From Flavobacterium cyclinae (GTDB lineage Bacteria > Bacteroidota > Bacteroidia > Flavobacteriales > Flavobacteriaceae): DNA of 64,000 nucleotides. Shown piece by piece: positions 10,226-23,683 of the stretch. The notes beneath the pieces are model-generated. The model was not told the origin of the DNA. It searched no databases and saw only the letters and a program-made list of their open reading frames with translations. Position numbers and translations under genes: made by a program. Location: assembly GCF_021172145.1 (NCBI RefSeq), contig NZ_CP089095.1, forward strand, positions 1 to 64,000. The letters run 5' to 3'. Each line of letters opens with the position of its first letter. The first letter of the stretch is position 1.

Positions 10226-10939
10226 ATGAAATACACCTATATATTCATATTATCTTTTATTACATTAATTGCATTTTCTCAGAAAAGCGGAACCATAACC
10301 TATAATTTTAAAATATTAGAAGATGAAAAATTCATTAAAAATGAAGTTCTTGGAAAATTCTTCTTACAAGCAATTGAAGGGGCAAAACATCTAAAGTTTG
10401 AACTAACTTTTAATGATTCTATTTCGGAATTTAAACTCTTAAATAACATGTCTTTAGATGGCCAAGACTTAGAAATGGCGATAATAAACAGCAGAACAAA
10501 AAAAGAAATTTATATTTTTAAGAATAAAATTTATCATAATAATTCTAATGGCCTTTTTAAAGAAAATGAGTTTTTAATAATAGAACCTTTAAATCAAAAA
10601 TGGAAACTAACAAATGAATCTAAAACCATAGACGGTTACACCTGTTATAAAGCTACTAACGAATACATTGTAGTTAATTCTAAAGGTACTTTCAAACACC
10701 CAGTTATAGCCTGGTTTTGTCCTCAAATTCCTATTCCAATTGGACCCAGAGGATATGGAGGTCTTCCAGGTTTAATATTAGAACTACAAGAATGGAATAG
10801 TGTATTTGGTGTTGAAAAAATAGCATTTTCAAATGATATTAAAGAAATTGTATTGCCAAAAGAAGGAAAGATAATTTCTAATCAAGAATATCAAAATAAA
10901 GTTGGTGCTGCAGCAAAGGGTGAATTTAATAACAATTAA
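10226..10939 (+). CDS. GLPGLI-family protein, copy 1 of 9
   Basis: A 237-residue secreted protein of the GLPGLI family (function unknown; named for its motif). It has an N-terminal Sec signal ending LIAFSQKSG, the motif YTCYKAT, then IAWFCPQIP and GYGGLPGLILEL. The two cysteines (CYKAT and FCPQ) are shared with most copies in the array and could form a disulfide. This first copy has no peptide gene and no hairpin in front; it follows the OmpA gene by 20 bases. It may be the founder or an outlying copy. The broken receptor fragment found after several other copies is not recognisable here. Confidence 0.9.
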   Translation: MKYTYIFILSFITLIAFSQKSGTITYNFKILEDEKFIKNEVLGKFFLQAIEGAKHLKFELTFNDSISEFKLLNNMSLDGQDLEMAIINSRTKKEIYIFKNKIYHNNSNGLFKENEFLIIEPLNQKWKLTNESKTIDGYTCYKATNEYIVVNSKGTFKHPVIAWFCPQIPIPIGPRGYGGLPGLILELQEWNSVFGVEKIAFSNDIKEIVLPKEGKIISNQEYQNKVGAAAKGEFNNN

Positions 10940-10998
10940 TATTATAACAGTTTTTTAGTTTATAATTTCATTTATACTTTAAAAACTAACCTTAAAAC

Positions 10999-11071
10999 AC
11001 CGTAACAAATTAGCACAAAACACCGTAAAATCATTGTTTTGAATAGTATTAATTTGCGCTTGGTTAACCAA
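10999..11071 (+). promoter_or_regulatory. array control block for peptide p1
   Basis: Direct repeats ACCGTAA at 10999-11005 and 11022-11028 (23 bases start to start), an AT-rich stretch with TTAATTTG at 11049-11056 as a weak match to TAnnTTTG, and the palindrome TTGGTTAACCAA at 11060-11071. The same order recurs ahead of p4, p5, p6 and p7. Repeats two helical turns apart, upstream of a weak promoter, suit an activator dimer. The A/C-C-G-T core resembles LytTR-type sites; that assignment is inference. Confidence 0.65.
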
Positions 11072-11103
11072 AAACAAATTATTAATTTTAAAATTCAAAA
11101 AAA

Positions 11104-11352
11104 ATGAAAAAAGTATTTTTTAGTGCAGTTGCACTAGTAACGTTTTCTTTTGCTGGTATGGCAAATGAAATTGAAGAGAAAAAAGATGTGTTAATTGTAA
11201 GAAACAATTGTGATGTTTTTGCAGATGGTGTATATAATAATCAAATAAATGATGGTTGTTCTGTTGAAGAGGCACATGAAGCATCAGTTGGTGCTTATAA
11301 TGACTGTATAGATTTACATAACAAATATAATATTTCTCTAACTGAAGCATAA
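11104..11352 (+). CDS. small secreted Cys-pair peptide p1
   Basis: 82 residues. The signal peptide (MKKVFFSAVALVTFSFAGMA) and pro-segment NEIEEKK are shared almost unchanged with the other array peptides. The mature part is unlike the others except for its cysteines: C in NNCDVF and C in AYNDC are exactly 31 residues apart, with a third Cys in between (NDGCSVEE). A helix-turn-helix hairpin closed by a disulfide is likely. Cleavage is expected after GMA. It is followed by a hairpin and GLPGLI copy 2. No known family is recognised, and a toxin, pheromone or structural role cannot be decided. Confidence 0.85.
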   Translation: MKKVFFSAVALVTFSFAGMANEIEEKKDVLIVRNNCDVFADGVYNNQINDGCSVEEAHEASVGAYNDCIDLHNKYNISLTEA

Positions 11353-11360
11353 TAAACAAA

Positions 11361-11382
11361 CCCCTTACAAAAATGTAAGGGG
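11361..11382 (+). promoter_or_regulatory. hairpin between p1 and GLPGLI copy 2
   Basis: CCCCTTACA (11361-11369) pairs perfectly with TGTAAGGGG (11374-11382), loop AAAA. Only a weak T-run follows (TACTTTTA). It ends 16 bases before the next ATG, a spacing kept in most units, so attenuation, RNA processing or translation control are all possible. Confidence 0.75.
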
Positions 11383-11398
11383 TACTTTTAAAAAAATT

Positions 11399-12085
11399 AT
11401 GAAAAATATAATTATTTATTTGCTATTTTTTTTAGTGAATCTTTCATTTTCACAAAATTACAGTATTACATATGAATTAAAAATCTTTGAAAATAAAAAA
11501 TCTCTCGAAAATGAATATTTAAAAGATTATTACTTAAAAGCCATGGAAGGGGCAAAAAATTTAACCTTTGTACTTAGATGTGAAAAAGATAAATCATTTT
11601 TTGATTATAGAAACATTTTAAGTATTAATTCAAGCGAAACAAAAGCTGCTATTATAAAATCTGAAACAAAAAGACCATATTATATAGAAAAAAACTGGGT
11701 ATATAAAATCGATAAAAAAAAATATATCGAAAAGAAATATATAATAAAAGATTCTCTATTAACCAATTGGGAAATAACAAACGAAACAAAAAAGATAAAT
11801 AACTACACTTGTTATAAAGCAACAGCAAAATATAAAATTATTAATCCTAAAGGAGTCTTTTATCATCCAGTAATAGCTTGGTTTTGTCCTGAAATTCCTT
11901 TACAACATGGTCCAAGAGGATTTGGTGGTTTACCTGGTTTAATCTTAGAATTGCAATATCGAGAAATTGTTTTTGGTGCAACTTTAATTGAAAAGACTAA
12001 CGAACCTGTTATTTTTAATTTTGAAGAAGAAATTATTGATCAATCCGAGTACGATAAAAAACTACTTGAATTAAGAAAAAATTAA
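11399..12085 (+). CDS. GLPGLI-family protein, copy 2 of 9
   Basis: 228 residues, with a Sec signal ending NLSFSQNYS. It shares with copy 1 the segments KAMEGAKNLTF, YTCYKAT, IAWFCPEIP and GFGGLPGLILEL, and both Cys are kept. It lies 46 bases after the p1 stop, behind the hairpin. A remnant of the receptor gene start (TTG in place of ATG) follows its stop at once. Copies 1 and 2 look closest to each other within the array (GPRGYGG and GPRGFGG, VNSKGTFKHPV and INPKGVFYHPV). Confidence 0.9.
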   Translation: MKNIIIYLLFFLVNLSFSQNYSITYELKIFENKKSLENEYLKDYYLKAMEGAKNLTFVLRCEKDKSFFDYRNILSINSSETKAAIIKSETKRPYYIEKNWVYKIDKKKYIEKKYIIKDSLLTNWEITNETKKINNYTCYKATAKYKIINPKGVFYHPVIAWFCPEIPLQHGPRGFGGLPGLILELQYREIVFGATLIEKTNEPVIFNFEEEIIDQSEYDKKLLELRKN

Positions 12086-12148
12086 TTGCCAAAATACCTA
12101 ATCCTAATCTTATTTTTCAACACACAAAAATTTCTAAAAATAAAATAG
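12086..12148 (+). pseudogene. relic of the receptor gene 5' end (after copy 2)
   Basis: The first eleven codons match the start of the receptor gene at 21023 (xPKYLILxLFF), but the start is TTG and the match ends in an unrelated NTQKFLKIK tail and a stop. It adjoins the GLPGLI stop directly, the same place the intact receptor gene takes after copy 9. It marks a duplication boundary. Confidence 0.7.
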
Positions 12149-12318
12149 TAAAAAACATTTGATTATCAATATTATAACATTTTACGTGTTAAATTATTGT
12201 TAAAACACAATATTTCATGCGAAAAATCGTTTTTTTTTTTTTCAACTTTGTTTTCGGTTAACCAAAAACAAAATACTAATTTTAAAAATTTAAAGAATGA
12301 AAAAAATGATTTTTAGTG
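12086..12318 (+). repeat. long direct repeat, first copy (partner 13517-13746)
   Basis: From the receptor-gene relic through the 5' leader and the first seven codons of p2a the sequence is nearly identical to 13517-13746. The main difference is a T-run before the leader: 13 Ts (12230-12242) here against about 9 in the other copy. This unit type differs upstream from the ACCGTAA type but has the same leader with core palindrome GGTTAACC at 12256-12263. Confidence 0.85.
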
Positions 12319-12530
12319 CCGTAGCACTAGTAGCGTTTTCTTTTGCTAGTATGGCAAATGAAATTGAGGAAAAGAAGGTTGAACTTAAATCAGAAAAAAA
12401 CATTACTAAAGATTGCTGTGAAATTTCAGATGCAACTTTTGATGGTGCTGTAAAAGCTGGTATTCACTGGTCACAAGCACAATATATTGCTTTGGCTGCC
12501 TATAATGAATGTAATAAATTAAATAAATAG
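12297..12530 (+). CDS. small secreted Cys-pair peptide p2a
   Basis: 77 residues. The constant signal peptide (MKKMIFSAVALVAFSFASMA) and NEIEEKKVE are present, then a short mature part with KDCCEISD and AAYNEC. The first Cys of the CC pair and the last Cys are 31 residues apart, as in p1. The mature part is rich in Ala/Gly and likely helical. It stands first in a two-peptide unit: p2b starts three bases after its stop. No homologue outside the array is recognised. Confidence 0.85.
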   Translation: MKKMIFSAVALVAFSFASMANEIEEKKVELKSEKNITKDCCEISDATFDGAVKAGIHWSQAQYIALAAYNECNKLNK

Positions 12531-12533
12531 TTT

Positions 12534-12749
12534 ATGAAAAGTAAAATAATAATTTATAGTTTAATTCTATTACCAATAATGGGATTTAGTGGTGAAAAAA
12601 AGAGTACAATTAAAAATGCCGATGCTTGTACAGACGTTTATCGCGCAACAAGAGATGCCGCACTTGCAGAGGGTTTTAATTATACTAAAGCACAACAAAT
12701 AGGGGCGGCTGCATATTATTCATGTAGAGCACAACTTACAAAAAATTAA
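12534..12749 (+). CDS. small secreted Cys-pair peptide p2b
   Basis: 71 residues. Its signal peptide (MKSKIIIYSLILLPIMGFSG) is not the constant array leader, yet the mature part has the same plan: C in DACTDV and C in AAYYSC, 31 residues apart, with a matching Tyr-x-x-Cys end. It lies three bases after p2a, so the two are surely co-transcribed and perhaps act as a pair. A 9-base-pair hairpin and GLPGLI copy 3 follow. Confidence 0.8.
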   Translation: MKSKIIIYSLILLPIMGFSGEKKSTIKNADACTDVYRATRDAALAEGFNYTKAQQIGAAAYYSCRAQLTKN

Positions 12750-12753
12750 CAAT

Positions 12754-12783
12754 AAATGCCCATAAATATTTTTTTGGGCATTT
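12754..12783 (+). promoter_or_regulatory. hairpin between p2b and GLPGLI copy 3
   Basis: AAATGCCCA (12754-12762) pairs with TGGGCATTT (12775-12783), loop of 12 AT-rich bases. It is followed by an A-run, not a T-run, so it is a poor terminator for the + strand. It ends 13 bases before the GLPGLI ATG. Confidence 0.7.
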
Positions 12784-12796
12784 AAAAAAAAATATC

Positions 12797-13507
12797 ATGA
12801 AAAAACTTATTTACATCATACCATTTTTAATTATTTGTTGTAATATCATTGGACAAAATACATTGATAAAATATTCATATGAATCAAAATTTACAAAAGA
12901 ACAACTTGAAAATAATGAAATTGCTGCTGTTTTAAAAGATGTCGTTGCAAACGACAAAAATATTAATCTCGAACTAGTATTTAATGACACCATTTCCATA
13001 TTTAGATATATTGATGGTTTAAATGTAGATGATTTTAGCAATATTGCTAAAAGTATTTGCGGATGTGGGCAACCTTATATACAACACAAAAATTTCTACT
13101 ACACAAATAATGATGAATTAATGATGGAAAAAAATAGTTATGTAATTAAAGATACCATTAAAAAAAATTGGCAAATTACTAACGAAACAAAAAATATAGA
13201 TGGTTTAATATGTTATAAAGCAACTCTTAATGAAATTGAGATTCAACCTAACGGTATGCCTTATGAACATAATATAATTGCTTGGTTTTGTCCATCTATT
13301 CCAAGTAGTTTTGGCCCAATTGGTTTTGGTGGTCTTCCAGGAACAATTTTGATTTTAGAAACTAATTCTTCTATCTTTAAAGTTAAAGAAATAATAAAAA
13401 ACAATAGTGAAAGAATAGTAAATAACCTGAAAGGTAAAATAGTAACAAAAAAAGAATTTGATGCCATTTCTTACAAGTCTTTTGAAGAAGGTATGTTTAA
13501 AGAATAA
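12797..13507 (+). CDS. GLPGLI-family protein, copy 3 of 9 (variant motif)
   Basis: 236 residues, with a signal peptide containing a Cys pair (LIICCNIIGQN); this could be a lipobox-like feature, but the spacing makes a normal signal peptide as likely. The family motifs are LICYKAT, IAWFCPSIP and GFGGLPGTILIL, where the name motif reads GLPGTI. It has extra cysteines in SICGCGQPY not seen in other copies. It is followed nine bases on by a receptor-gene relic. Confidence 0.88.
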   Translation: MKKLIYIIPFLIICCNIIGQNTLIKYSYESKFTKEQLENNEIAAVLKDVVANDKNINLELVFNDTISIFRYIDGLNVDDFSNIAKSICGCGQPYIQHKNFYYTNNDELMMEKNSYVIKDTIKKNWQITNETKNIDGLICYKATLNEIEIQPNGMPYEHNIIAWFCPSIPSSFGPIGFGGLPGTILILETNSSIFKVKEIIKNNSERIVNNLKGKIVTKKEFDAISYKSFEEGMFKE

Positions 13508-13516
13508 ATAATCTAA

Positions 13517-13579
13517 ATGCTAAAACACCTAATCCTATTCTTATTTTTCAACACACAAAAGTTTCTAAAAATAAAATAG
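13517..13579 (+). pseudogene. relic of the receptor gene 5' end (after copy 3)
   Basis: It opens with ATG and reads MLKHLILFLFF, matching the receptor start for eleven codons, then the same unrelated NTQKFLKIK tail and stop as the relic at 12086. Twenty codons, too short and too clearly a remnant to count as a gene. Confidence 0.7.
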
Positions 13580-13746
13580 TAAAAAAATATTTGATTATCA
13601 ATATTATAAGATTTTACGTGTTAAATTATTGTTAAAACATAATATTTCATGCGAAAAATCGTTTTTTTTTCAACTTTGTTTTCGGTTAACCAAAAACAAA
13701 ATACTAATTTTAAAAATTTAAAGAATGAAAAAAATGATTTTTAGTG
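13517..13746 (+). repeat. long direct repeat, second copy (partner 12086-12318)
   Basis: Nearly identical to the stretch before p2a, covering the relic, the upstream region, the leader with core palindrome GGTTAACC (13684-13691) and the start of p3a. The T-run before the leader is about nine bases against thirteen in the partner. A recent duplication explains this best. Confidence 0.85.
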
Positions 13747-13958
13747 CAGTTGCACTTCTGGCAATATCTGTTTCAGGATTTGCAAATAACAAATTAGAAG
13801 ATTTATTATTAGATCCTAGTTGCGATGATGCTGCTTTTGATGCTATGGAATGGGCTTTTGAAGAGGGATTTGACGATCAAACAGTTGCTAACATAGGTAA
13901 TTGGGCATATGCTAACTGTTGGTTAAGACAAAAATCTGTAAATAATCCTTCATTTTAA
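13725..13958 (+). CDS. small secreted Cys-pair peptide p3a
   Basis: 77 residues. The leader is a drifted form of the constant one (MKKMIFSAVALLAISVSGFA) and the pro-segment NEIEEKK is lost. The mature part is acidic with C in PSCDDAAF and C in AYANC, 31 residues apart. Its mature core is very like that of p3b (CDDAAF, AMEWA, GxxDQ, NxAYAxC), which shows a local gene duplication. It is the first of two peptides in the unit. Confidence 0.83.
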   Translation: MKKMIFSAVALLAISVSGFANNKLEDLLLDPSCDDAAFDAMEWAFEEGFDDQTVANIGNWAYANCWLRQKSVNNPSF

Positions 13959-13963
13959 TAATT

Positions 13964-14176
13964 ATGAAAAAAACAATTTATACAATAGCTCTATCACTAT
14001 TTATTTTGAACGTTAATGCCGATAATTTTTGCGATGATGCTGCTTTTAATGCAATGGAATGGGCGGCAGAAGCAGGCCTAGATGACCAAGAAATAGCAAA
14101 TGCTGGAAATTATGCCTATGCTGTTTGTTGGTTAATGAATAGGAACTTGATCAGAGATTCTGGTTCTGGTTTATAG
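13964..14176 (+). CDS. small secreted Cys-pair peptide p3b
   Basis: 70 residues, starting five bases after p3a stops. Its own signal peptide (MKKTIYTIALSLFILNVNA) is unlike the constant leader, but the mature part matches p3a closely: CDDAAFNAMEWA and NYAYAVC, with 31 residues between the cysteines. The pair p3a/p3b recalls two-peptide systems. A 10-base-pair hairpin and GLPGLI copy 4 follow. Confidence 0.82.
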   Translation: MKKTIYTIALSLFILNVNADNFCDDAAFNAMEWAAEAGLDDQEIANAGNYAYAVCWLMNRNLIRDSGSGL

Positions 14177-14183
14177 TATAACC

Positions 14184-14208
14184 TGAAAGCTGATTCAATC
14201 AGCTTTCA
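14184..14208 (+). promoter_or_regulatory. hairpin between p3b and GLPGLI copy 4
   Basis: TGAAAGCTGA (14184-14193) pairs perfectly with TCAGCTTTCA (14199-14208), loop TTCAA, weak T-run after. It ends 14 bases before the GLPGLI ATG. Confidence 0.75.
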
Positions 14209-14222
14209 TTATTTAAATAAGT

Positions 14223-14894
14223 ATGAAAAATATAATTATATTAAGTTTTGTTTTAATCCCATTTTATGTACTGTCGCAAAAAAACATTGCTACATATGAG
14301 GTATTGTTTAAAGTTGAAAATCAAAAAAGAAGTTCAGAATTTTTTGACCAAATAACAGAAGCATCTAAAAATCTAGAATATCAATTGCTTTTTAATTCAA
14401 ATATTTCGCAATTTTCAATTTCAAGAAAACTTCAGCTAGAAGGTATGTACTTAGCCGCATCAAAAATTATTTCAAAAGGTATATATTATTACAATAAAAG
14501 TGAAAATAAAAATTACATAATAAATGATGGTGTTTATTACAAACAAAAAACAACAAGTAATTGGAAATTACACGATGAACAAAAAATTATAAACAATTAT
14601 AAATGTTTTAAAGCTACAACAGTAAAAACAATTGTTAATTCTAAAGGAACTTTTAATCATACAATAACAGCGTGGTACTGTCCTGAAATACCATATAGCT
14701 ATGGTCCAAATGGTTATCAAGGATTACCAGGATTAATTTTTGAATTAATAGAATTACCAGCAAATCACTTTGTGCTAAAAAAACTAATTCTTAATCATTC
14801 CACTGAAAATTTTATAGACTTAAGTAATTTTAAAGAAATATCAGAAGAAAGTTATATAGAAAGTATAAAATCAAATTTACCCTTTAAAAAATAA
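14223..14894 (+). CDS. GLPGLI-family protein, copy 4 of 9
   Basis: 223 residues with signal peptide ending FYVLSQKN. The family motifs are YKCFKAT, ITAWYCPEIPYSYGP and GYQGLPGLIFEL; both Cys are kept. It has the conserved ASKNLEYQLLFN segment, which aligns with AKNLTFVL in copy 2. It is the second gene class of the p3a/p3b unit and probably the envelope partner of those peptides (inference from order alone). Confidence 0.9.
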   Translation: MKNIIILSFVLIPFYVLSQKNIATYEVLFKVENQKRSSEFFDQITEASKNLEYQLLFNSNISQFSISRKLQLEGMYLAASKIISKGIYYYNKSENKNYIINDGVYYKQKTTSNWKLHDEQKIINNYKCFKATTVKTIVNSKGTFNHTITAWYCPEIPYSYGPNGYQGLPGLIFELIELPANHFVLKKLILNHSTENFIDLSNFKEISEESYIESIKSNLPFKK

Positions 14895-14917
14895 ATTAAA
14901 AATTAGTAAAAGACACT

Positions 14918-14965
14918 CTGAAAACTCTCTATAAAACGATAATGTAATTGCAAAACCTTAAGATA
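14918..14965 (+). pseudogene. weak relic of receptor gene codons about 30-42 (after copy 4)
   Basis: AATGTAATTGCAAAACCTTA (14941-14960) matches the receptor segment near 21126-21146 (AATGTAATTGCTAAACC) with few changes, and the bases before it also align loosely. The start-codon part seen in other relics is gone. Call is tentative. Confidence 0.4.
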
Positions 14966-15010
14966 ATAACATAAAACCGATAATAAATTAAATTAATTAA
15001 CGTTTTAAAA

Positions 15011-15113: not shown

Positions 15114-15356
15114 ATGAAAAAAATGATTTTTAGTGCTGTAGCACTAATAGCTTTTTCTTTTGCTGGTATGGCAAATGAAATTGAAGAGAAAAAAGTTGAA
15201 AATGCAGTAGTTATAACTGATTGTTTCTCTGATGCAATTGATTATTTAAACAGAATTGATCCTAATTATGAATTATCTAACATAGAAGGAGCAAGAATTA
15301 TGAATGCTTATATTGCCGGATGTGAAAAAGCAAAAAAAATAACATCTGCTAATTAA
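15114..15356 (+). CDS. small secreted Cys-pair peptide p4
   Basis: 80 residues with the constant leader (MKKMIFSAVALIAFSFAGMA) and NEIEEKKVE. The mature part has C in TDCFSDAI and C in YIAGCEKA, 32 residues apart, one more than most. The part between is helical with a turn around IDPNYELSN. The pattern NAYIAxC is shared in outline with p5 (NIYIAIC). It is followed by a long-loop hairpin and GLPGLI copy 5. Confidence 0.85.
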   Translation: MKKMIFSAVALIAFSFAGMANEIEEKKVENAVVITDCFSDAIDYLNRIDPNYELSNIEGARIMNAYIAGCEKAKKITSAN

Positions 15357-15365: not shown

Positions 15366-15417
15366 GGCTGGTTGATAAAATTTGGTTTTATAAAAATATT
15401 TAATTTTTCAATCAGCC
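15366..15417 (+). promoter_or_regulatory. long-loop hairpin between p4 and GLPGLI copy 5
   Basis: GGCTGGTTGA (15366-15375) pairs with TCAATCAGCC (15408-15417) with one wobble; the 32-base loop is AT-rich and may fold further. No T-run follows. It ends 15 bases before the GLPGLI ATG. Confidence 0.65.
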
Positions 15418-15432: not shown

Positions 15433-16107
15433 ATGAGACAAATATTTATTATTAGTTTTATGTTCGGATTTAATTTTTTGTTTTCACAAAGTGGACAAGT
15501 TTTTTACGAAGCTATTTCGAAAAAATATCCTGAAACTAAGGAAAAAAAAGTAGATTCATATATTGATGATCTTGAAAAAACAAGAATTACATTTGAATTA
15601 AAATTTAATAACCAAAATAGTTTTTTTTATAAATTAAGTTTAAACAAAGAAGATGGGTATAGTTTAGCTGAGGAAACTTTGTTGATTATGCTTGGATTTA
15701 AAGAAGTTTATTTTGAATTAAAAGAAAAGGTATTACGCGAAGATTATGGTGAATTTCTGATTAAAACTCCATCAAATCATAATTGGAATATTTCCAGCGA
15801 ATCTAAAAAAATAGACAACTACTTATGCTACAAAGCTACATGTTCAGAAAGTTATACAGCAAGGGATGGTAAAACCAAAAAAAGAGTAATTACAGCATGG
15901 TTTTGTCCTGAATTACCTTATTCATTTGGCCCTTTAGATTTCAATGGTTTACCGGGATTAATTTTAGAACTAGAAAAAAGCGGTAATAAAATTGTAGCAA
16001 AATCTATTGTGCTGTCAGATAAGACAATTGAAATAAAAATCCCTAATAAAAAAACAATTACAAAAGAACAATACGACAAAAAAATTAAGGAAAATTCTGA
16101 ATTTTAA
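15433..16107 (+). CDS. GLPGLI-family protein, copy 5 of 9
   Basis: 224 residues with signal peptide ending NFLFSQSGQ. Motifs are YLCYKAT, ITAWFCPELPYSFGP and DFNGLPGLILEL; both Cys are kept. It has the basic stretch RDGKTKKRV just before the ITAW motif, similar to copy 6 (RGKEKKK). The receptor-gene relic starts with its ATG on the base right after this stop codon, the clearest such junction in the array. Confidence 0.9.
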   Translation: MRQIFIISFMFGFNFLFSQSGQVFYEAISKKYPETKEKKVDSYIDDLEKTRITFELKFNNQNSFFYKLSLNKEDGYSLAEETLLIMLGFKEVYFELKEKVLREDYGEFLIKTPSNHNWNISSESKKIDNYLCYKATCSESYTARDGKTKKRVITAWFCPELPYSFGPLDFNGLPGLILELEKSGNKIVAKSIVLSDKTIEIKIPNKKTITKEQYDKKIKENSEF

Positions 16108-16233
16108 ATGCCAAAATACCTAATCCTATTCTTATTTTTCCCAATATTCTCTGTTTCCCAAACCTTAACCGGCACGGTAAAAGATTCGCTTGGAAACCCA
16201 TTACAAAATGCTAATGTAATTGCTAAATGTTAA
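16108..16233 (+). pseudogene. relic of the receptor gene 5' end (after copy 5), 41 codons
   Basis: It reads MPKYLILFLFFPIFSVSQ, then TLTGTVKDSLGNPLQNANVI and AKC before a stop. The first 40 codons match the intact receptor at 21023 nearly base for base, and the match breaks at the same codon as in the relic at 19700. It still encodes a complete signal peptide, so a 41-residue product could be made, but a truncated copy is by far the simpler reading. Confidence 0.85.
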
Positions 16234-16251
16234 TTAGATAATAAAAAAAAC

Positions 16252-16356: not shown

Positions 16357-16608
16357 ATGAAAAAAGTATTTTTTAGTGCAGTAGCACTTGTAGCATTTTC
16401 TTTTGCTGGTATGGCAAATGAGATTGAAGAGAAAAAGGTTGAAGAAGCATCAACCGAAAGAGATTGTTTCTTGGAAGCTGATATGACATTAAGAGTGTGG
16501 GATGCACTTTATGGCGGTAGTGGTTTGACGGAACAAGAAGAAATTAGATTTATGAACATTTATATTGCAATATGTGAAGGTTATCCTGCGTCAAGTATAA
16601 TTAACTAA
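16357..16608 (+). CDS. small secreted Cys-pair peptide p5
   Basis: 83 residues with the constant leader (MKKVFFSAVALVAFSFAGMA), NEIEEKKVEEASTERDC and a mature part ending YIAIC before a short tail. The two cysteines are 35 residues apart because of an inserted turn (LYGGSGLTEQ). The segment up to ASTERDC is identical to that of p6 except for one residue, while the rest differs, showing where the constant part ends. Confidence 0.85.
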   Translation: MKKVFFSAVALVAFSFAGMANEIEEKKVEEASTERDCFLEADMTLRVWDALYGGSGLTEQEEIRFMNIYIAICEGYPASSIIN

Positions 16609-16613: not shown

Positions 16614-16634
16614 AATGGGCTCTAAGAGCCCATT
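16614..16634 (+). promoter_or_regulatory. hairpin between p5 and GLPGLI copy 6
   Basis: AATGGGCTC (16614-16622) pairs perfectly with GAGCCCATT (16626-16634), three-base loop. No T-run. It ends only six bases before the GLPGLI ATG, closer than in the other units. Confidence 0.7.
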
Positions 16635-16640: not shown

Positions 16641-17330
16641 ATGAAAAATATAATATTTTTTTTAATTTTTAACTTTGTGAACAATAGTTTTAACTCTGGT
16701 GAAGTTATTTATAAAATAGTTTTACCAGAAGCTAAAGAAATTGATGAATCAAAATATCCAAAACATATTATTGATCAGGTAAAAAAAATTAATGAAGAAA
16801 GAAGTCGGTTTGAATTTATATTAACATTTAATAAAAATATTTCAAAATATAAAAAGAAAGAATCTTTAAATCAAAGTGAAAATAATGAATATAAAATAGC
16901 ATTAAACACCTTTGGAAGTGAAGAAATATATTACAATTCATCAGAAAAGATTTTTATAAAAAAAACTAATTCATCAGAATTAGTAAAATCATATAACAAC
17001 TCACATTGGATTACACATTCTGAAAATAAAAAAATTCAAAACTTTCTAGTCTACAAGGCAACAAAAGAAGTTAAATATAATTCAAGAGGCAAAGAAAAAA
17101 AGAAAACAATAATCGCTTGGTACTGCCCAGAAATTCCGTTTAATTTTGGTCCATTAGATAATGCTGGTTTACCAGGTTTAATTTTAGAAATCAACGATGG
17201 AGAAATGTCATATGTTGCAAACAAAATAAAATTAAACAAAACAAAAACAAACATTGTAATTCCTAAAGGCAAAACAATATCTGAAGAAGAGTATTTAACT
17301 AAAATAAGAAAAAGATTTGGTGGATATTAA
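16641..17330 (+). CDS. GLPGLI-family protein, copy 6 of 9 (one Cys lost)
   Basis: 229 residues. Its motifs are FLVYKAT, IIAWYCPEIPFNFGP and DNAGLPGLILEI. The first family Cys (CYKAT) is replaced by Val, leaving the Cys in WYCPEIP without its usual partner. The signal peptide is also weak: the hydrophobic part is short and ends NNSFNSGE without the usual S-Q site. This copy may be decaying. It is followed within 15 bases by the broken peptide gene, and no control block or relic separates them. Confidence 0.85.
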   Translation: MKNIIFFLIFNFVNNSFNSGEVIYKIVLPEAKEIDESKYPKHIIDQVKKINEERSRFEFILTFNKNISKYKKKESLNQSENNEYKIALNTFGSEEIYYNSSEKIFIKKTNSSELVKSYNNSHWITHSENKKIQNFLVYKATKEVKYNSRGKEKKKTIIAWYCPEIPFNFGPLDNAGLPGLILEINDGEMSYVANKIKLNKTKTNIVIPKGKTISEEEYLTKIRKRFGGY

Positions 17331-17342
17331 GTATTAAAAAAA

Positions 17343-17627
17343 ATGATTTTTAGTGCAATCGCACTTATAGGGCTTTCTTTTGCTGGGATGGCAAATGAAA
17401 TTGAAGAGAAAAAAGTTTAAGTAGAAACTATTCAAATTGAAAAATTTGAAAATACGTTTGAAGAATCATCAAACTCAAATGAAACTGGATCGCTTAAGTG
17501 TTGGGCTTTTGGAAAATGGTTAAGAGCAAAATTAAATGCAATTTCAGATAATGATGCCTTAATTGATCAAACCGTTGATGCAGCAGTAGATTTATGTAAC
17601 ATTCTAGATGATGCAGGTTTAATCTAA
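17343..17627 (+). pseudogene. broken Cys-pair peptide gene (nonsense codon, start lost)
   Basis: The array leader is recognisable from its fourth codon (MIFSAIALIGLSFAGMA, NEIEEKKV), but the usual first ATG is TTA. A TAA at 17418-17420 stops the frame right after EKKV. Beyond it the same frame stays open for 68 codons and still shows the mature plan: C in SLKCWAF and C in AAVDLC, 31 residues apart. The upstream control block is missing. A longer pro-segment (about 25 residues, Glu/Asn/Ser-rich) precedes the first Cys. The downstream hairpin is kept. Confidence 0.8.
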
Positions 17628-17638
17628 TATAAATTTTT

Positions 17639-17667
17639 ACTGCTCTGATTACAAAAATTAGGGCAGT
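17639..17667 (+). promoter_or_regulatory. hairpin between broken peptide gene and GLPGLI copy 7
   Basis: ACTGCTCTGATT (17639-17650) pairs with AATTAGGGCAGT (17656-17667), with wobble pairs, loop ACAAA. It ends 15 bases before the GLPGLI ATG, as in intact units. Confidence 0.7.
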
Positions 17668-17682
17668 ATTTAAAAAAAGAAT

Positions 17683-18429
17683 ATGAGAAAAATAATTTTT
17701 CTAGTTTTTATTCTATTAAAAATCCCAGTATTTTCTCAAAGTGGGCAAATAGAGTATGTTTCTTTCTTTAAAAGTGATGCTAATAACTACATAATTAAAG
17801 AATTAGAAAATATCGTGGAAGAAAATGACTCAAAATTATCATACTCATTAATTGTAAATGGTAATAAAAGTATATTTTTTTCATCAAAAACACTTTCTAG
17901 TAAAACAGATAAAATTAATTTGCAAGAAATTAATTCTAAACTAATTGGCACTATTTTTTTAGATCTTAATCAAAGAATATTGGTACAAAAGAAAATTGTT
18001 TATGGTGAGGAATTAACTATTAAAGATTCTATTAAAAAATTCAACTGGGAACTAATTAATAATGAAACTAAAATTATAGATAATATGCTTTGTTATAAAG
18101 CAATTCATAAAGAAATTATTGAAAAAAAAATTGAAAACGAGAAAAACGAAATTCAGGTTGTTAAAAAAGAAAAAATCATAACGGCTTGGTATTGTCCAAC
18201 AATCAATATAAATGTTGGACCATTGGGTTTTTATGGACTACCAGGATTAATAATACTTCTTGAGGATGATATTTTTGTTTATCAAGCAAAAAAAATAATA
18301 CTTAATCTAAATTTTAATCAAAAATCACTTATTGAACCTCCTAAAGCAACAAAATATTTAAATTATGATGAGTATTTAAAAGAATATAATAGATTAAAAT
18401 CGATTAGAGAAAATATGATGAAATACTAA
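17683..18429 (+). CDS. GLPGLI-family protein, copy 7 of 9
   Basis: 248 residues, the longest copy, with signal peptide ending IPVFSQSGQ. Motifs are MLCYKAI, ITAWYCPTININVGP and GFYGLPGLIILL; both Cys are kept. It has an extra charged insert before the ITAW motif (KKIENEKNEIQVVKKEK). Its peptide gene is broken, so this GLPGLI gene may be transcribed only by read-through from upstream. The open reading frame is nonetheless intact. Confidence 0.9.
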   Translation: MRKIIFLVFILLKIPVFSQSGQIEYVSFFKSDANNYIIKELENIVEENDSKLSYSLIVNGNKSIFFSSKTLSSKTDKINLQEINSKLIGTIFLDLNQRILVQKKIVYGEELTIKDSIKKFNWELINNETKIIDNMLCYKAIHKEIIEKKIENEKNEIQVVKKEKIITAWYCPTININVGPLGFYGLPGLIILLEDDIFVYQAKKIILNLNFNQKSLIEPPKATKYLNYDEYLKEYNRLKSIRENMMKY

Positions 18430-18447: not shown

Positions 18448-18575
18448 ATGCCAAAATACCTAATCCTATTCTTATTTTTCCCAATATTCTCTCTTTCCCA
18501 AACCTTAACCGGCACGGTAAAATATTCTTTAGAAAAACCAATTTAAAATGCCATTGAAATTACAAAATCTTTAGT
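18448..18575 (+). pseudogene. relic of the receptor gene 5' end (after copy 7), decayed
   Basis: It reads MPKYLILFLFFPIFSLSQ and TLTGTVKYSLEKPI before a stop at 18544-18546. The bases after the stop still align with receptor codons up to about 44 (AAATGCC, ATTACAAAATCTTTAGTTT). It is more decayed than the relics at 16108 and 19700. Confidence 0.8.
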
Positions 18576-18619
18576 TTAAATGTTAATTCGAAAATAAATT
18601 TAAAAAATTAACGTTTAAA

Positions 18620-18721: not shown

Positions 18722-18943
18722 ATGAAAAAAGTATTTTTTAGTGCAGTTGCGCTAGTAGCTTTTTCGTTTGCTGGTATGGCAAATGAGATTGTAGAGAAAA
18801 AGGTTGAAGAAGCATCAACCGAAAGAGATTGTATTGCTGAAGCAAAAGCAGCTATCAAATATATGCAGTTTTTAGGTGCTGATGAAGCGGATGTCTTATA
18901 TGTTGCACAAATAGTAAGAGCAAGTTGTGAGGCTTCAAAATAA
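18722..18943 (+). CDS. small secreted Cys-pair peptide p6
   Basis: 73 residues with the constant leader, NEIVEKKVEEASTERDC and a compact mature part ending RASCEASK. The cysteines are 31 residues apart (DCIAEAK and RASC). The mature part is Ala-rich and very likely two helices around FLGADEAD. It shares the pro-segment through ASTERDC with p5. A strong hairpin and GLPGLI copy 8 follow. Confidence 0.85.
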   Translation: MKKVFFSAVALVAFSFAGMANEIVEKKVEEASTERDCIAEAKAAIKYMQFLGADEADVLYVAQIVRASCEASK

Positions 18944-18951
18944 CAAAAACT

Positions 18952-18976
18952 AACCAAGCCAAAATTTGGCTTGGTT
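18952..18976 (+). promoter_or_regulatory. hairpin between p6 and GLPGLI copy 8
   Basis: AACCAAGCCA (18952-18961) pairs with TGGCTTGGTT (18967-18976), loop AAATT. It is followed by TATTAAAAG, no real T-run, and ends 15 bases before the GLPGLI ATG. Confidence 0.75.
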
Positions 18977-18991
18977 TATTAAAAGTTTAAA

Positions 18992-19693
18992 ATGAATAAA
19001 ATATTCCTTTTTTTCGTACTGATTTTCTTTATGTTTTTTCTGTGTCCTCTTTATTCACAAATAAATAAAGCTATATATTCCGTTTCAATAAACAATAAAG
19101 AAGATATCGACAAGACATCGCCTTTCAATTCCTATTATAAAATTGCACAAGAAAACAGTAACCAATTTACATTTCATTTGATTTTTTCTAAAGACAGCAG
19201 TGATTTTTTTATTAATGATAATCTAGAAATTGAATATCATTCATTTAGAATGGTTAAAGCATTTTCTAGGTATCAAGGTTTTGTTAGAAAAACTAAAAAT
19301 AAAACTTTTATTGAAAAAGAGATTGATAATAAAACCTATATTTTAGAAGAAAAAACAGTATATAATTGGACTTTAACCACCGAAACTAAAAAAATAGGTA
19401 GTTATAATTGTTACAAAGCAACAGCCGAAAAAACAATTAAAAACAAAATAATAGTTCCTATAACGGCTTGGTATTGTCCTGAAATAGCTTATCAATTTGG
19501 GCCTAATGGTTACGGGAATTTACCTGGATTAATTGTAGAACTTCAAATTGATAATGTAATTTATGGATTGAAATCCATTAATTTTGATGATAATACTATT
19601 AAATTTAAAGAAATTGATTTTGAAAAAATTATTTCTCAAGATAAATACGACGAAATAATCAAAGAAAAAATGAAGTTTATTTTAGATGAATAA
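18992..19693 (+). CDS. GLPGLI-family protein, copy 8 of 9
   Basis: 233 residues with a strong signal peptide containing CPLYSQ near its end. Motifs are YNCYKAT, ITAWYCPEIAYQFGP and GYGNLPGLIVEL, where the name motif reads NLPGLI. Both Cys are kept. The receptor-gene relic starts six bases after its stop. It is an otherwise normal family member. Confidence 0.9.
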   Translation: MNKIFLFFVLIFFMFFLCPLYSQINKAIYSVSINNKEDIDKTSPFNSYYKIAQENSNQFTFHLIFSKDSSDFFINDNLEIEYHSFRMVKAFSRYQGFVRKTKNKTFIEKEIDNKTYILEEKTVYNWTLTTETKKIGSYNCYKATAEKTIKNKIIVPITAWYCPEIAYQFGPNGYGNLPGLIVELQIDNVIYGLKSINFDDNTIKFKEIDFEKIISQDKYDEIIKEKMKFILDE

Positions 19694-19699
19694 TTACAA

Positions 19700-19825
19700 A
19701 TGCCAAAATACCTAATCCTATTTTTATTTTTCCCAATATTCTCTCTTTGCCAAACCCTAACCGGCACGGTAAAAGATTCGCTTGGAAACCCATTACAAAA
19801 TGCTAATGTAATTGCTAAACCATAG
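19700..19825 (+). pseudogene. relic of the receptor gene 5' end (after copy 8), 41 codons
   Basis: It reads MPKYLILFLFFPIFSLCQ, TLTGTVKDSLGNPLQNANVI and AKP before TAG. It matches the intact receptor start nearly base for base up to codon 41 and breaks there, like the relic at 16108. This shared end point defines the duplication junction. Confidence 0.85.
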
Positions 19826-19871
19826 TTTATGTTATAAATTAGATAATAAATAAAAAAACTAACGTTAAAAC

Positions 19872-19944
19872 ACCGTAATAAAATAGCACAAAAAACCGTA
19901 AAATCATTGTTTTAAATAGTATTAATTTGCGCTTGGTTAACCAA
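19872..19944 (+). promoter_or_regulatory. array control block for peptide p7
   Basis: Direct repeats ACCGTAA at 19872-19878 and 19895-19901 (23 apart), weak -7-like TTAATTTG at 19922-19929 and palindrome TTGGTTAACCAA at 19933-19944. It feeds the last unit, the only one leading into the intact receptor gene. Confidence 0.65.
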
Positions 19945-19977
19945 AAACAAAATACTAATTTTAAAAATTTAAACAAA

Positions 19978-20235
19978 ATGAAAAAAATGATTTTTAGTGC
20001 CGTAGCACTTGTAGCATTTTCTTTTGCTGGTATGGCAAATGAGATTGAGGAAAAGAAGGTTGAAGAAATCAATAAAAATGCTGAAACAACTATTGGTTGT
20101 GACCATTGTTATGATTATGCTGATTCATTAGATGATGGGACAGATAGAACAAATAAAAAATGGATGAGAAATGTTGACAATTGTAAAGTTGCAAATGGCT
20201 GTGAAGCTGTATTTACTGAATTATTAAATCCATAA
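19978..20235 (+). CDS. small secreted Cys-rich peptide p7 (four Cys)
   Basis: 85 residues from the ATG at 19978. The frame is open further upstream, but that stretch is the shared 5' leader, so the constant start MKKMIFSAVALVAF is right. After NEIEEKKVEE the mature part differs most from the others: four cysteines as CDHC and CKVANGC, with no 31-residue spacing, and acidic/basic rather than Ala-rich. It belongs to the unit joined to the intact receptor gene, so it may be the ancestral or the most specialised peptide. Confidence 0.85.
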   Translation: MKKMIFSAVALVAFSFAGMANEIEEKKVEEINKNAETTIGCDHCYDYADSLDDGTDRTNKKWMRNVDNCKVANGCEAVFTELLNP

Positions 20236-20244
20236 AAGCAGAAT

Positions 20245-20271
20245 ATTCCGCCGAATTTGATTCGGCGGAAT
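20245..20271 (+). promoter_or_regulatory. hairpin between p7 and GLPGLI copy 9
   Basis: ATTCCGCCGAA (20245-20255) pairs perfectly with TTCGGCGGAAT (20261-20271), loop TTTGA; the most stable hairpin of the series. No T-run follows. It ends 13 bases before the GLPGLI ATG. Confidence 0.78.
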
Positions 20272-20284
20272 TAATTAAAAGAAT

Positions 20285-21016
20285 ATGAAACACAGAATAA
20301 TTGCACTACTTTTTTTTTACATTAATACATTTAGCCAAGAAAGTGGAATAATCACTTACAAATCCTTTTTTAGTGTAAAGCAAGCAACAGAAGAACTTAA
20401 ACAACAAAACAGAATGTGGTATCAAGAAGAATTAGACCATGAAATGATGGCAAAACAGCTTCGATTCACACTCCAATTCAACACTGAAGCTTCTATTTTT
20501 ACAATGTCTGAAAACATGATTTCTGATATAGAAAATCAATTAAGTAAGAAATATACTATTGGTCGGTTTTATGGTAGTGATACTTTTTTTATTAACAGAA
20601 AAAAAGACACCTTAATTGAGCAACTTACCTATTCATTTGCTACATTATTAAGGAAAAAAAAAGCAAGTTTTATTAATTGGAATTTAACGACTGAAACAAA
20701 AGAAATTCAAGGTTATAAATGTTACAAAGCTACTTATACCTATGTACAAAAATGGAAGGGACGAGAATTTTTATGGCCTGTGGTGGCTTGGTATTGTCCC
20801 GAAATTCCTATCTCACTAGGACCTACAAGATACTCAGGATTACCCGGTTTGATATTAGAATTACATGAAAACGAAATTGGATATATTGTTGACAAAATTG
20901 ATTTTGTAAGCCTTCCAAAAAAAATAGTCGAACCCAAGATAGGTGAAATTTTGGACGATGAAGAAATTAATTTGAGGGATCAAAATGTAAAAAATGAAAT
21001 GTTAAATAGTAAATAA
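20285..21016 (+). CDS. GLPGLI-family protein, copy 9 of 9
   Basis: 243 residues with signal peptide ending INTFSQESG. Motifs are YKCYKAT, VVAWYCPEIPISLGP and RYSGLPGLILEL; both Cys are kept. It has a longer N-terminal region than most copies (ATEELKQQNRMWYQEELDHE). The intact receptor gene starts six bases after its stop, so the two should be co-transcribed; this is the complete form of the unit whose relics appear elsewhere in the array. Confidence 0.92.
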   Translation: MKHRIIALLFFYINTFSQESGIITYKSFFSVKQATEELKQQNRMWYQEELDHEMMAKQLRFTLQFNTEASIFTMSENMISDIENQLSKKYTIGRFYGSDTFFINRKKDTLIEQLTYSFATLLRKKKASFINWNLTTETKEIQGYKCYKATYTYVQKWKGREFLWPVVAWYCPEIPISLGPTRYSGLPGLILELHENEIGYIVDKIDFVSLPKKIVEPKIGEILDDEEINLRDQNVKNEMLNSK

Positions 21017-21022
21017 TTCTAA

Positions 21023-23683
21023 ATGCCAAAATCCCTAATTCTATTACTACTTTTTCCAATTATTTCTCTTTCCCAAACCTTAACCGGCACGGTAAAAGAT
21101 TCGCTTGGAAACCCATTACAAAATGCTAATGTAATTGCTAAACCTTTAGTTGAAAAACAAGGGTTAAAATTCTCTATTGCTGATCATTTAGGGAGATATA
21201 AATTAGAATTAGAAAAAGATGTTCCTTATGAGGTACGTGTATCGTATTTAGGTTTTACAGAAGAAATCTTAAATCTTCCAGCTAATTTTACTCAAAAAGA
21301 GCATCATTTTAAATTAAAAGAAAATGGGCAAGAATTAAAAGAAATTACCATAACCTATGACTACAAACCTGTTGTAGTAAAAAAAGACACTTTAATTTAC
21401 GATGTCAAAGCTTTTACTAGCGGTAACGAACGTAAACTGAAAGAACAATTAGAAAAGTTACCTGGAGTTGAAGTAGATAAAAACGGCGGTGTTACGGTTC
21501 AAGGCAAAAAAGTAACCAAGTTTTTAGTAGAAAATAATTCATTTTTTGGCGGTGGCACTAAATTAGGTGTAGAAAATATTCCTGCCGATGCAGTGGATAA
21601 AGTAGAAGTAATTGACAACTTCAACGAAGTAGGCTTTCTAAAACAAGTTTCCGATTCTGAAGACTTGGCCATGAACATCAAACTGAAAGAAGATAAAAAG
21701 AAATTCATTTTTGGCGATGTCGATGCAGGTGTTGAAGTTGCAAACGATAACGGATTCTATCTAGGTCATGCTGCTTTATTTTATTATGAACCTAAAACGA
21801 ATGTAAGTTTCATTGGCGACCTCAACAACATAGGTAAACGCACTTTTTCTTTTCAAGACATGATGCGTTTTCAAGGAGGTGCTAGCAGCTTTATTTCGGG
21901 AAGAAAACAATTAACTGATTTGTATTCCTTTGCTAGCGATAACACCGATGTCATTGAAAATAAATCACAATTTAGCGCATTAAACTTTCGTCAAGAAATT
22001 AATTCAAAATTAGATGTAGAAGGTTTTGCTATTTTTTCTAAGTTATTTACCCGCACATTAACCGAAAGTACTATTGAATATCTTCAAAACACAACAGCAA
22101 CTTTAGAAGAACGCATCAATAAAGGTGAAAATAAATCAATTTTAGGCATCGGAAACGTAAAACTTAACTTCACACCTAATACAAAAGAGAAATGGTTTTA
22201 CAATGGTCAATTTCAATCTAGTGCCAATGATATAAATTCGATTCTAAATTCAAGACTCGATGGACAACAAACTTCGTTTGAAACTTTAAACTCGGCTGAT
22301 AATATTCAAATCAAGCAGTTTTTAGAATGGCACAAACAAATAAATTTAAAACATACGACAACATTAGTAATAAACCAAAGTTACGACAATCAAAAACCCA
22401 TTAATACTTGGTTAACCGATACCGAATTCTTAACGGGTTTAATTCCGTTAGAAAATGATTCGTTTTACAACATTCAACAAGTAAAAAAAGTGAAGAACAA
22501 CAGTGTTGATGCTTTGTTTAAACATTATTGGATTGTCAATAACTACAATCATTTATATACTAATGTTGGTAATAATTTAGGAACTACACAGCTCCAAATC
22601 TCAGAAAAACAATACTTAACCGATGGTACAATCAATGATTTTGCAAGCGACGGTTTTGGGAACGACATGGATTATTTACTAAACGATTTGTATTTGGGTT
22701 TAGAATATAAGTTCAAAATAGGAAAATGGGTGAATAAACCTGCCATTTATGCCCATTACTATCATTTGAAAACAAAACAAATTGCAGCTGATTACACCTT
22801 AAACAATACATTTTTACAACCCAGTTGGTTAAGTGAATATGAATTCAATCAATCAGAAAACTTAAAATTCAATTATCGTTTGGTGAATGAATTTCCAGAA
22901 GCGAATCGTTTGTTAGAACGCTATACGTTACAAAGTTATAATTCAGTATTTAAAGGAAATGCGTTATTACGAAACGAACGTTTTCACAACGCAACTTTGA
23001 ATTATACCAAAACCAGTATGTATCGTGGTTTGATGCTTTTTGCCAATGCAAGTTTCACTAAAAAAGTGAGAACGATCCGTAATGAAATTGGTTTAGACGG
23101 CATCAATCAATTTACAACGCCAACCATTACCGATAATCCAGAAACAACTTATCGGGTTTATGGAAATATTGATAAAAAAATTCACAAATTTAGGTTGAGT
23201 TTTAATGCTAATTTGTCGTGGTTCAATTATACACAAACGGTAAATAGTCAAACAGTTATTAACGACAGAAACAATCAAAATTTTGGTCTAAGATTACGAA
23301 CAGCTAATAAAAAATGGCCAAGTGTAAGTGTGAGTTATAATAAAACCTTTAGTCAATTTTCGGGATTAACGAATTCAAAATTAACATCTGACCGATTCGG
23401 TTTTGATTTAGACATCGATTTTTGGAAACATTTTAATTTTAAAACCGATTACGAGGTAACCTTAAACGAAAACAGTAATAACATCGCAACTGATTTTAGA
23501 ATTGCCAATGCGTATTTGAGTTATCAAAAGAAAAACAATCCATTTCGTTTTGAGCTATCGGCTCAGAATTACTTGAATAACGGCACTAAAATCAACAATT
23601 CGTTTTCTGATTTTATGATTTCGAGTTCAACAACATACACATTGCCAAGAGTTGTAATGTTGACGATTAGTTATAAGCTCTAA
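21023..23683 (+). CDS. outer-membrane TonB-receptor-like protein with carboxypeptidase-regulatory domain
   Basis: 886 residues. A Sec signal (PIISLSQ) is followed by a carboxypeptidase-regulatory-like beta-sandwich (about residues 20-105; TGTVKDSLGNPLQNANVIAK, VRVSYLGFTEE). Next is a plug-like region (about 115-225; LKEQLEKLPGVEVDKNGG, IPADAVDKVEVIDNF), then a long stretch of alternating beta strands ending in VVMLTISYKL, typical of outer-membrane barrels. It resembles Bacteroidota proteins often annotated as TonB-dependent receptor, though no clear TonB box is seen. GLPGLI genes are commonly found next to such proteins. It may move or sense the array peptides; that is inference. Five upstream relics derive from its 5' end. 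Confidence 0.88.
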   Translation: MPKSLILLLLFPIISLSQTLTGTVKDSLGNPLQNANVIAKPLVEKQGLKFSIADHLGRYKLELEKDVPYEVRVSYLGFTEEILNLPANFTQKEHHFKLKENGQELKEITITYDYKPVVVKKDTLIYDVKAFTSGNERKLKEQLEKLPGVEVDKNGGVTVQGKKVTKFLVENNSFFGGGTKLGVENIPADAVDKVEVIDNFNEVGFLKQVSDSEDLAMNIKLKEDKKKFIFGDVDAGVEVANDNGFYLGHAALFYYEPKTNVSFIGDLNNIGKRTFSFQDMMRFQGGASSFISGRKQLTDLYSFASDNTDVIENKSQFSALNFRQEINSKLDVEGFAIFSKLFTRTLTESTIEYLQNTTATLEERINKGENKSILGIGNVKLNFTPNTKEKWFYNGQFQSSANDINSILNSRLDGQQTSFETLNSADNIQIKQFLEWHKQINLKHTTTLVINQSYDNQKPINTWLTDTEFLTGLIPLENDSFYNIQQVKKVKNNSVDALFKHYWIVNNYNHLYTNVGNNLGTTQLQISEKQYLTDGTINDFASDGFGNDMDYLLNDLYLGLEYKFKIGKWVNKPAIYAHYYHLKTKQIAADYTLNNTFLQPSWLSEYEFNQSENLKFNYRLVNEFPEANRLLERYTLQSYNSVFKGNALLRNERFHNATLNYTKTSMYRGLMLFANASFTKKVRTIRNEIGLDGINQFTTPTITDNPETTYRVYGNIDKKIHKFRLSFNANLSWFNYTQTVNSQTVINDRNNQNFGLRLRTANKKWPSVSVSYNKTFSQFSGLTNSKLTSDRFGFDLDIDFWKHFNFKTDYEVTLNENSNNIATDFRIANAYLSYQKKNNPFRFELSAQNYLNNGTKINNSFSDFMISSSTTYTLPRVVMLTISYKL

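Follow-up and report, generated by a model that had tools for sequence, protein, structure and literature searches.

Within the first 64,000 nucleotides of the Flavobacterium cyclinae contig NZ_CP089095.1 (assembly GCF_021172145.1), a stretch that we call the window, positions 10226 to 23683 hold a tandem array in which genes for small, putatively secreted peptides alternate with genes of the GLPGLI family, and which ends in a TonB-type receptor-like gene. We find that peptide and GLPGLI genes are inherited as matched units, that these units recur beside related receptors in other genera, and that about half of the GLPGLI genes examined lack an intact peptide gene. We tentatively favor the reading, short of an even chance and drawn from sequence comparisons, that the units are polymorphic cassettes of an antagonistic peptide and a periplasmic GLPGLI immunity protein, with the shared receptor as a door in the outer membrane.

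Matched inheritance and recurrence of the pair

Similarity between peptides went along with similarity between their GLPGLI partners across genomes (r = 0.512), also when receptor similarity was partialled out (0.509). Eleven duplicate loci were dropped before this and later counts. None of 2000 within-locus peptide shuffles reached the observed value (mean r 0.199, maximum 0.403). Without the closest pairs the correlation was 0.375, 0.271 and 0.223 at peptide-similarity ceilings of 0.6, 0.4 and 0.3, respectively. Furthermore, best matches for GLPGLI and for the peptide coincided in 38 of 39 comparisons, where 13.4 were expected. Peptide similarity followed receptor similarity hardly at all (r 0.115, partial −0.093). 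These data show co-inheritance as a unit, not binding, and inheritance of the cognate pair as a unit is also a mark of polymorphic toxin-immunity systems.

Receptor relatives were found in Flavobacterium, Lutibacter, Polaribacter, Tenacibaculum, Capnocytophaga and other genera. In the best 80 of 517 loci, which hold 83 receptor frames, a GLPGLI gene lies within 400 bp upstream of 72, and several of the 11 receptors without one sit at contig ends. A two-cysteine secreted open reading frame (ORF) precedes that GLPGLI gene, by a strict rule, in 36 of the 68 cases with enough DNA, compared to 0 of 68 on the opposite strand. A second locus set, which includes the window and partly the same contigs, yielded a peptide in 16 of 27, whereas the opposite strand again gave none. 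The preliminary description of the window had read the array as a dedicated system in which secreted peptides have their own envelope proteins, possibly for competition, signaling or surface recognition, and would have been refuted if GLPGLI genes elsewhere never occurred with such peptides. They do so at those 36 of 68 receptor loci, and both the matched inheritance and the recurrence of the pairing across genera speak for such a system.

Within the genus, receptors 39–95% identical occur in at least 30 of 199 genomes, the window genome included, as counted from up to four scored candidates in most genomes. A search that began with the peptide found it in 27 of the 199, and 25 of these 27 also carry the receptor (hypergeometric p about 1e-24). 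One of these 25, G105, has a leader-only peptide match that lies on another contig than the receptor; in the two without receptor (G047 and G177) a different small secreted protein precedes a distant GLPGLI gene. The same search in other genera gave eight loci in seven genomes, with GLPGLI directly behind the peptide in all eight and the receptor within the stretch in seven; five share their contig with a locus of the receptor set and three are new. The peptide profile includes some receptor-locus peptides, one of them among these eight, and leans on Flavobacterium leaders, with matches in 8 of 299 family genomes, window genome included. When the search started from GLPGLI instead, a candidate peptide turned up in 7 of 20 chosen stretches, including some of other kinds; the remaining 13 had none.

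In seven chosen cassette pairs, the ratio of nonsynonymous to synonymous substitution rates (dN/dS) was 0.15–0.28 for the mature peptide, apart from one value of 0.76, 0.08–0.33 for GLPGLI, and 0.04–0.11 for the receptor in the six pairs where it was measurable. Diversifying selection on the orthologous peptides was not found, with dN/dS below 0.3 in six of these seven pairs and 0.76 in one. Because orthologous peptides are thus mostly under purifying selection, their variety seems to stem from the exchange of long-standing lineages rather than from fast evolution within a locus. The cassettes as a whole change faster than the receptor.

Some cassettes appear to have moved independently of the receptor. 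Between a Lutibacter and a Gelidibacter assembly (both metagenomic), the synonymous divergence (dS) of GLPGLI is 0.44–0.77 against a receptor dS of 1.35, and between two Flavobacterium loci it is 0.01–0.02 against 0.23. Over 40 GLPGLI pairs, dS was less than 0.6 of the receptor value in 19 and more than 1.4 in 4; five of the 19 have a saturated receptor dS, one (L147, L151) probably compares non-orthologous receptors, and the 13 that remain are not independent. Exchange of cassettes is known from polymorphic toxin-immunity systems.

Layout and control elements of the array

The array is bordered by a gene judged by eye to be OmpA-like (9351–10205) and by an opposite-strand gene (23809–24252). 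Its features are given below; GLPGLI genes were assigned by the PF09697 and TIGR01200 profiles and intact peptide genes, of 70–85 codons, as ORFs.

10226..10939, +, GLPGLI 1, no peptide in front
11060..11071, no strand, palindrome TTGGTTAACCAA of unit 2, by motif count in the genome
11104..11352, +, secreted peptide, unit 2
11360..11383, +, hairpin, unit 2 (folding z −4.8)
11399..12085, +, GLPGLI 2 (structure predicted)
12297..12530, +, secreted peptide a, unit 3
12534..12749, +, secreted peptide b, unit 3
12753..12784, +, hairpin, unit 3 (z −4.0)
12797..13507, +, GLPGLI 3
13725..13958, +, secreted peptide a, unit 4 (structure predicted)
13964..14176, +, secreted peptide b, unit 4
14184..14208, +, hairpin, unit 4 (z −5.5)
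14223..14894, +, GLPGLI 4
15114..15356, +, secreted peptide, unit 5 (close cassette copy in locus L047)
15366..15417, +, hairpin, unit 5 (z −3.7)
15433..16107, +, GLPGLI 5
16108..16248, +, receptor 5′-end fragment after GLPGLI 5 (score 205, shuffled maximum 52)
16357..16608, +, secreted peptide, unit 6
16614..16634, +, hairpin, unit 6 (z −5.3)
16641..17330, +, GLPGLI 6
about 17331..17627, +, broken peptide gene, unit 7 (in-frame stop; control block lost)
17638..17668, +, hairpin, unit 7 (z −6.1)
17683..18429, +, GLPGLI 7
18448..18580, +, receptor 5′-end fragment after GLPGLI 7 (score 166, shuffled maximum 50)
18722..18943, +, secreted peptide, unit 8
18947..18988, +, hairpin, unit 8 (z −3.9)
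18992..19693, +, GLPGLI 8
19700..19827, +, receptor 5′-end fragment after GLPGLI 8 (score 203, shuffled maximum 53)
19978..20235, +, secreted peptide, unit 9
20245..20271, +, hairpin, unit 9 (z −4.7)
20285..21016, +, GLPGLI 9
21023..23683, +, TonB-type receptor-like outer-membrane gene with CarboxypepD-reg-like N-terminal domain (ORF, profiles)

The gene content first reported for the array was recovered in full. All nine GLPGLI genes in the row exceed the curated cut-offs of both PF09697 (Porph_ging) and TIGR01200; seven follow an intact peptide gene, GLPGLI 7 stands behind the broken one with its in-frame stop, and GLPGLI 1 follows none. Nine intact peptide ORFs are present, and the last unit leads into an unbroken receptor ORF. 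The idea of a fixed unit holds for the general layout and fails in its details: units 3 and 4 carry two peptides each, unit 1 has neither peptide nor control block, the control block of unit 7 is lost, and receptor 5′-end fragments of about 130 nt lie behind GLPGLI 5, 7 and 8. The array stands out from chance by the profile matches of its families, by long multi-copy repeats, and by a palindrome whose exact copies in the genome are confined to the front of its peptide genes.

This palindrome, or a near-palindrome, spans 12 bases and lies roughly 40 bases ahead of the peptide start in seven units. Exact copies of TTGGTTAACCAA at 11060, 15071, 16313, 18680 and 19933, all before array peptide genes, are the only five in the genome (3.02 Mb, a single contig), and the near-palindrome TCGGTTAACCAA occurs at 12254 and 13682. 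The looser pattern TNGGTTAACCAA matches 10 genome sites, of which 7 are those of the array, and the reversed control pattern also gives 10 matches. Among 100 peptide upstream regions, a palindrome is centered at −36 to −40 in 26 (1.7 expected), and the −55 bin contains the starts of 16 T[AT]nnTTTG boxes as opposed to none in one shuffled copy. This box resembles the Bacteroidota −7 element, and the palindrome would then lie near the transcript start, as an operator or a 5′ RNA element.

A hairpin separates peptide gene and GLPGLI gene in all eight units that have a peptide gene, each time with a different sequence (z −3.7 to −6.1). At other loci, z was below −2 in 71 of 80 peptide-GLPGLI intergenic regions (median −4.9), compared to 17 of 101 upstream control regions (median −0.43); the 80 remain from 94 after removal of 14 that fell outside 25–160 nt or had no start, with the window cassettes excluded. 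Conservation of structure through changes of sequence is good evidence that the hairpin has a role, and it may set the ratio of peptide to GLPGLI through attenuation or mRNA protection. An Rfam search of positions 9000–24000 found no family.

Across seven window units, mean identity is 83% in the upstream DNA and 85% in the leader codons, and falls to 68% in the mature peptide (shuffled 66%) and 67% in GLPGLI. Conserved arms around a variable interior are the form that cassette exchange by homologous recombination would be expected to take. The receptor fragments behind GLPGLI 5, 7 and 8 indicate that new units brought the start of the receptor along; the match behind GLPGLI 4 is weak (72, shuffled maximum 61), those behind GLPGLI 1, 2, 3 and 6 do not exceed the shuffled maximum, and such fragments are seen in other genomes too. 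These duplication junctions, together with the decayed peptide genes, would also suit a recently duplicated, selfish or neutral array whose units multiply by recombination and whose peptides have no role outside the cell. We consider this very improbable given the purifying selection on both peptides and GLPGLI, the hairpin kept through sequence change, and the recurrence across genera.

Peptide, GLPGLI and receptor proteins

Of 101 peptides with two suitable cysteines, under a rule that allowed a spacing of 28 to 37, 55 have a spacing of exactly 32. Within these 55, glycine stands 15 residues after the first cysteine in 45, serine, aspartate, threonine or asparagine occupies position 17 in 49, and alanine and tyrosine recur at helix spacing. 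The model of the peptide encoded at 13725 has helices at residues 33–46 and 51–72; a block over residues 31–70 reaches pLDDT 86–97, leader and linker are of low confidence, and the overall values are pLDDT 72.8 and pTM 0.53. The peptide core is therefore predicted to be a helical hairpin, and a disulfide may join its two cysteines. The unit 9 peptide (19978–20235) has four cysteines behind the leader, in a layout unlike that of the other units.

A Pfam scan of 64 peptides gave no consistent family and no known toxin family, a result that a novel toxin would give as well. The peptide model retrieved nothing from a structure search at E ≤ 0.001, the helical hairpin being too plain, and a sequence search of solved structures found no relative. 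Relatives of the peptides are mostly nameless or called hypothetical. Further members at 913–916 kb, suggested by a shared leader, were rejected; the genes at 913478–915594 (L075) encode longer proteins, by eye of outer-membrane type, with a leader much like that of the peptides.

Distant GLPGLI genes also stand behind other small secreted cysteine peptides (L252:2713-7528, L248:2856-7399, L261:764-4703, L262:887-4716, L212:572-1629), some of them Thr/Ser-rich, with a receptor in the same run at four of these five loci. Helical-hairpin peptides are not the only kind that occurs in this layout. At several loci (L055:12723, L082:10258, L101:7638, L102:5477, L128:1672 and others) the peptide start codon is missing, the frame is mostly intact and the next GLPGLI gene is intact. 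Before GLPGLI genes, 8 of 114 peptide frames are start-less and 9 truncated, numbers that demand no special mechanism of start-codon loss, and we dropped that idea.

The array proteins belong to the GLPGLI family (TIGR01200; PF09697, Porph_ging), which Pfam labels a protein of unknown function. At E ≤ 0.001 the family comprises 4779 proteins among 7996 candidates scored, and 35 of the 118 genomes sampled from the phylum contain it. The F. cyclinae genome has four more matches outside the array, one of them under the cut-off. One genome of the same order and another family (G585) has 22, mostly scattered over one chromosome.

The predicted GLPGLI structure has the bowl fold of the N-terminal domain of PNGase F-II (PF22252; PDB 4r4z, 7zgn). 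Five of the nine array proteins match PF22252, all under 27.6 bits and below the cut-off, and some GLPGLI relatives carry the PF22252 label. In PNGase F-II this domain is fused to a glycosidase, whereas GLPGLI stands alone; the part of the source available to us gives the function of the domain as unknown (PMC9522356). Weaker fold matches are LolA and RseB/MucB, at Z values that may reflect a common arrangement only. A sequence search of solved structures found no relative of GLPGLI, the periplasmic proteins LolA/LolB and RseB/MucB included. MucB holds a helix of its partner MucA, according to the available part of PMC7400510, and we count this in favor of an antagonistic peptide with GLPGLI as its immunity protein, MucB being among the weaker fold matches. 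A block-by-block test did not clearly single out one GLPGLI region as the part tracking the peptide (r 0.08–0.30 per block).

The CarboxypepD-reg-like N-terminal domain was matched in 14 of 14 receptors, the window receptor lying just over both cut-offs; against solved chains, two N-terminal domains alone match at E ≤ 0.01. One GLPGLI gene outside the array adjoins a paralogous receptor 33% identical to that of the array. This pair (GLPGLI of 300 aa; 2658858–2662510, L044) has no peptide, and all 25 other genomes inspected contain pairs like it.

Orphan partners and candidate functions

Loss of the two genes is asymmetric. Of 203 GLPGLI genes, 104 lie behind an intact peptide gene, 25 behind a broken one and 74 behind none, leaving 99 without an intact peptide; this count may miss some peptides, and excludes GLPGLI frames of 180 residues or fewer or within 700 nt of a locus start. 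It improves on the 109 of 210 given by a first rule that missed peptide genes and overstated the orphan share. A stricter count made earlier placed 47 of 97 peptide-less GLPGLI genes less than 150 nt from the preceding gene, which leaves little room for a peptide. Conversely, an intact GLPGLI gene follows 142 of 150 peptide frames, as found with a profile built from peptides before GLPGLI genes. By our judgement, two of the eight exceptions look unrelated (L135, L137), one is a leader-only relic (L095), one is the frame of a peptide-GLPGLI deletion (L140), and four (L093 and three in L154) precede broken or short GLPGLI frames.

Orphan GLPGLI genes remain constrained. For pairs of at least 60% identity, median dN/dS is 0.16 where both members are peptide-less (6 pairs) and 0.16 where both have a peptide (9 pairs); mixed pairs give 0.18–0.20, and the pairs overlap. 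Likewise, GLPGLI 1, whose orthologs in two near relatives also lack a peptide, has dN/dS of 0.10 and 0.12 against those in L047 and L048. The 99 of 203 orphans and the unchanged median dN/dS reproduce, as a pattern, the orphan immunity genes of polymorphic toxin-immunity systems.

It is the partner kept without its peptide, along with the slowly changing receptor, that leads us to rank a weapon and its antidote first. Peptide and GLPGLI would both be Sec-exported to the periplasm, where the peptide could be captured in the GLPGLI cavity, and the shared receptor would give it passage through the outer membrane; neighbors without the matching GLPGLI would be harmed, and the hairpin would set the unequal output of the two products. 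A bolder version, which we regard as possible and less probable, is a kin-recognition weapon: a family-wide conserved receptor would serve as the door, an exchangeable cassette of a disulfide-stapled hairpin peptide and a bowl-shaped GLPGLI antidote would decide survival, and GLPGLI would be an antidote and adaptor family throughout Bacteroidota.

Several observations weigh against an antagonistic peptide. Keeping the partner and dropping the peptide equally fits non-producers of a shared good, and linkage alone can yield matched inheritance. Seven leader-like frames have no GLPGLI gene within 520 nt. The cores of the peptides are acidic, with a mean net charge of −3.8 and 87% of them negative, which sets them apart from typical membrane-lytic peptides, and no known toxin family matches them. 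The receptor is weakly recognized in its plug (weak matches in 5 of 14, best E 0.033) and in its β-barrel (OMP_b-brl_3 in 1 of 14, E 1.1e-4), and similarity among GLPGLI proteins correlates moderately with that among receptors (r 0.370). At the 26 chosen loci of the paralogous pair, GLPGLI lies within 400 bp of the receptor in 26 of 26 and a peptide was found in 0 of 24 testable loci, which suggests an older role of GLPGLI with the receptor and which a carrier or adaptor fits better than immunity does. The acidic peptides, the peptide-free pair and the missing toxin homology keep our confidence in a weapon and its antidote below an even chance. In addition, GLPGLI is evidently not only a peptide partner, as it is often peptide-less, has no peptide in the paralogous pair, and had a candidate peptide in just 7 of 20 stretches chosen by GLPGLI.

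Two alternative readings were weighed. A LolA-like GLPGLI could ferry its own peptide to the receptor for export or display, in adhesion, surface architecture or signaling, with no toxicity involved. The peptide-free paralogous pair, the predicted bowl fold with its weaker likeness to LolA and RseB, the moderate correlation of GLPGLI with the receptor and the acidic peptides all agree with this, but peptide-less GLPGLI proteins under unchanged constraint would then be carriers without cargo, and we hold such a carrier to be doubtful. Alternatively, a released peptide might bind a nutrient or metal and return via the receptor, with GLPGLI as periplasmic acceptor and peptide-losers as profiteers. 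TonB-type receptors usually import, and the peptide is indeed lost while GLPGLI and receptor are kept. However, uptake specificity normally resides in the receptor, which does not track the peptide here (partial r −0.093), and two core cysteines at fixed spacing would suit a structural disulfide; we judge a public good unlikely.

Polymorphic toxin-immunity systems, including the rAID orphan-immunity arrays of Bacteroidales, likewise comprise matched pairs and orphan partner genes, as described in the available part of PMC12247911. The array differs from them in that its peptides have no known toxin domain and the partner adjoins a TonB-type receptor. The GLPGLI passages available to us from the open-access literature tie the family to no peptide; among the PhoP targets of Riemerella anatipestifer, the excerpt at hand lists GLPGLI genes and a TonB receptor separately. 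In the same literature we found no paper naming Porph_ging, PF09697 or TIGR01200, and nothing fitting this system on secreted peptides of flavobacteria together with TonB receptors, on bacteriocins or on chaperones resembling LolA. These searches brought up no system that joins peptide, GLPGLI and receptor, whereas the component families and folds each already carry a name.

The placement of many GLPGLI members between peptide and receptor gives a large family without an assigned role its first testable function and predicts its binding partners, and the array points to a set of small genes that are mostly hypothetical or nameless. If the units do encode a weapon and its antidote, flavobacteria would have a new way of competing with one another; a carrier and its cargo would instead amount to a new route through the outer membrane.

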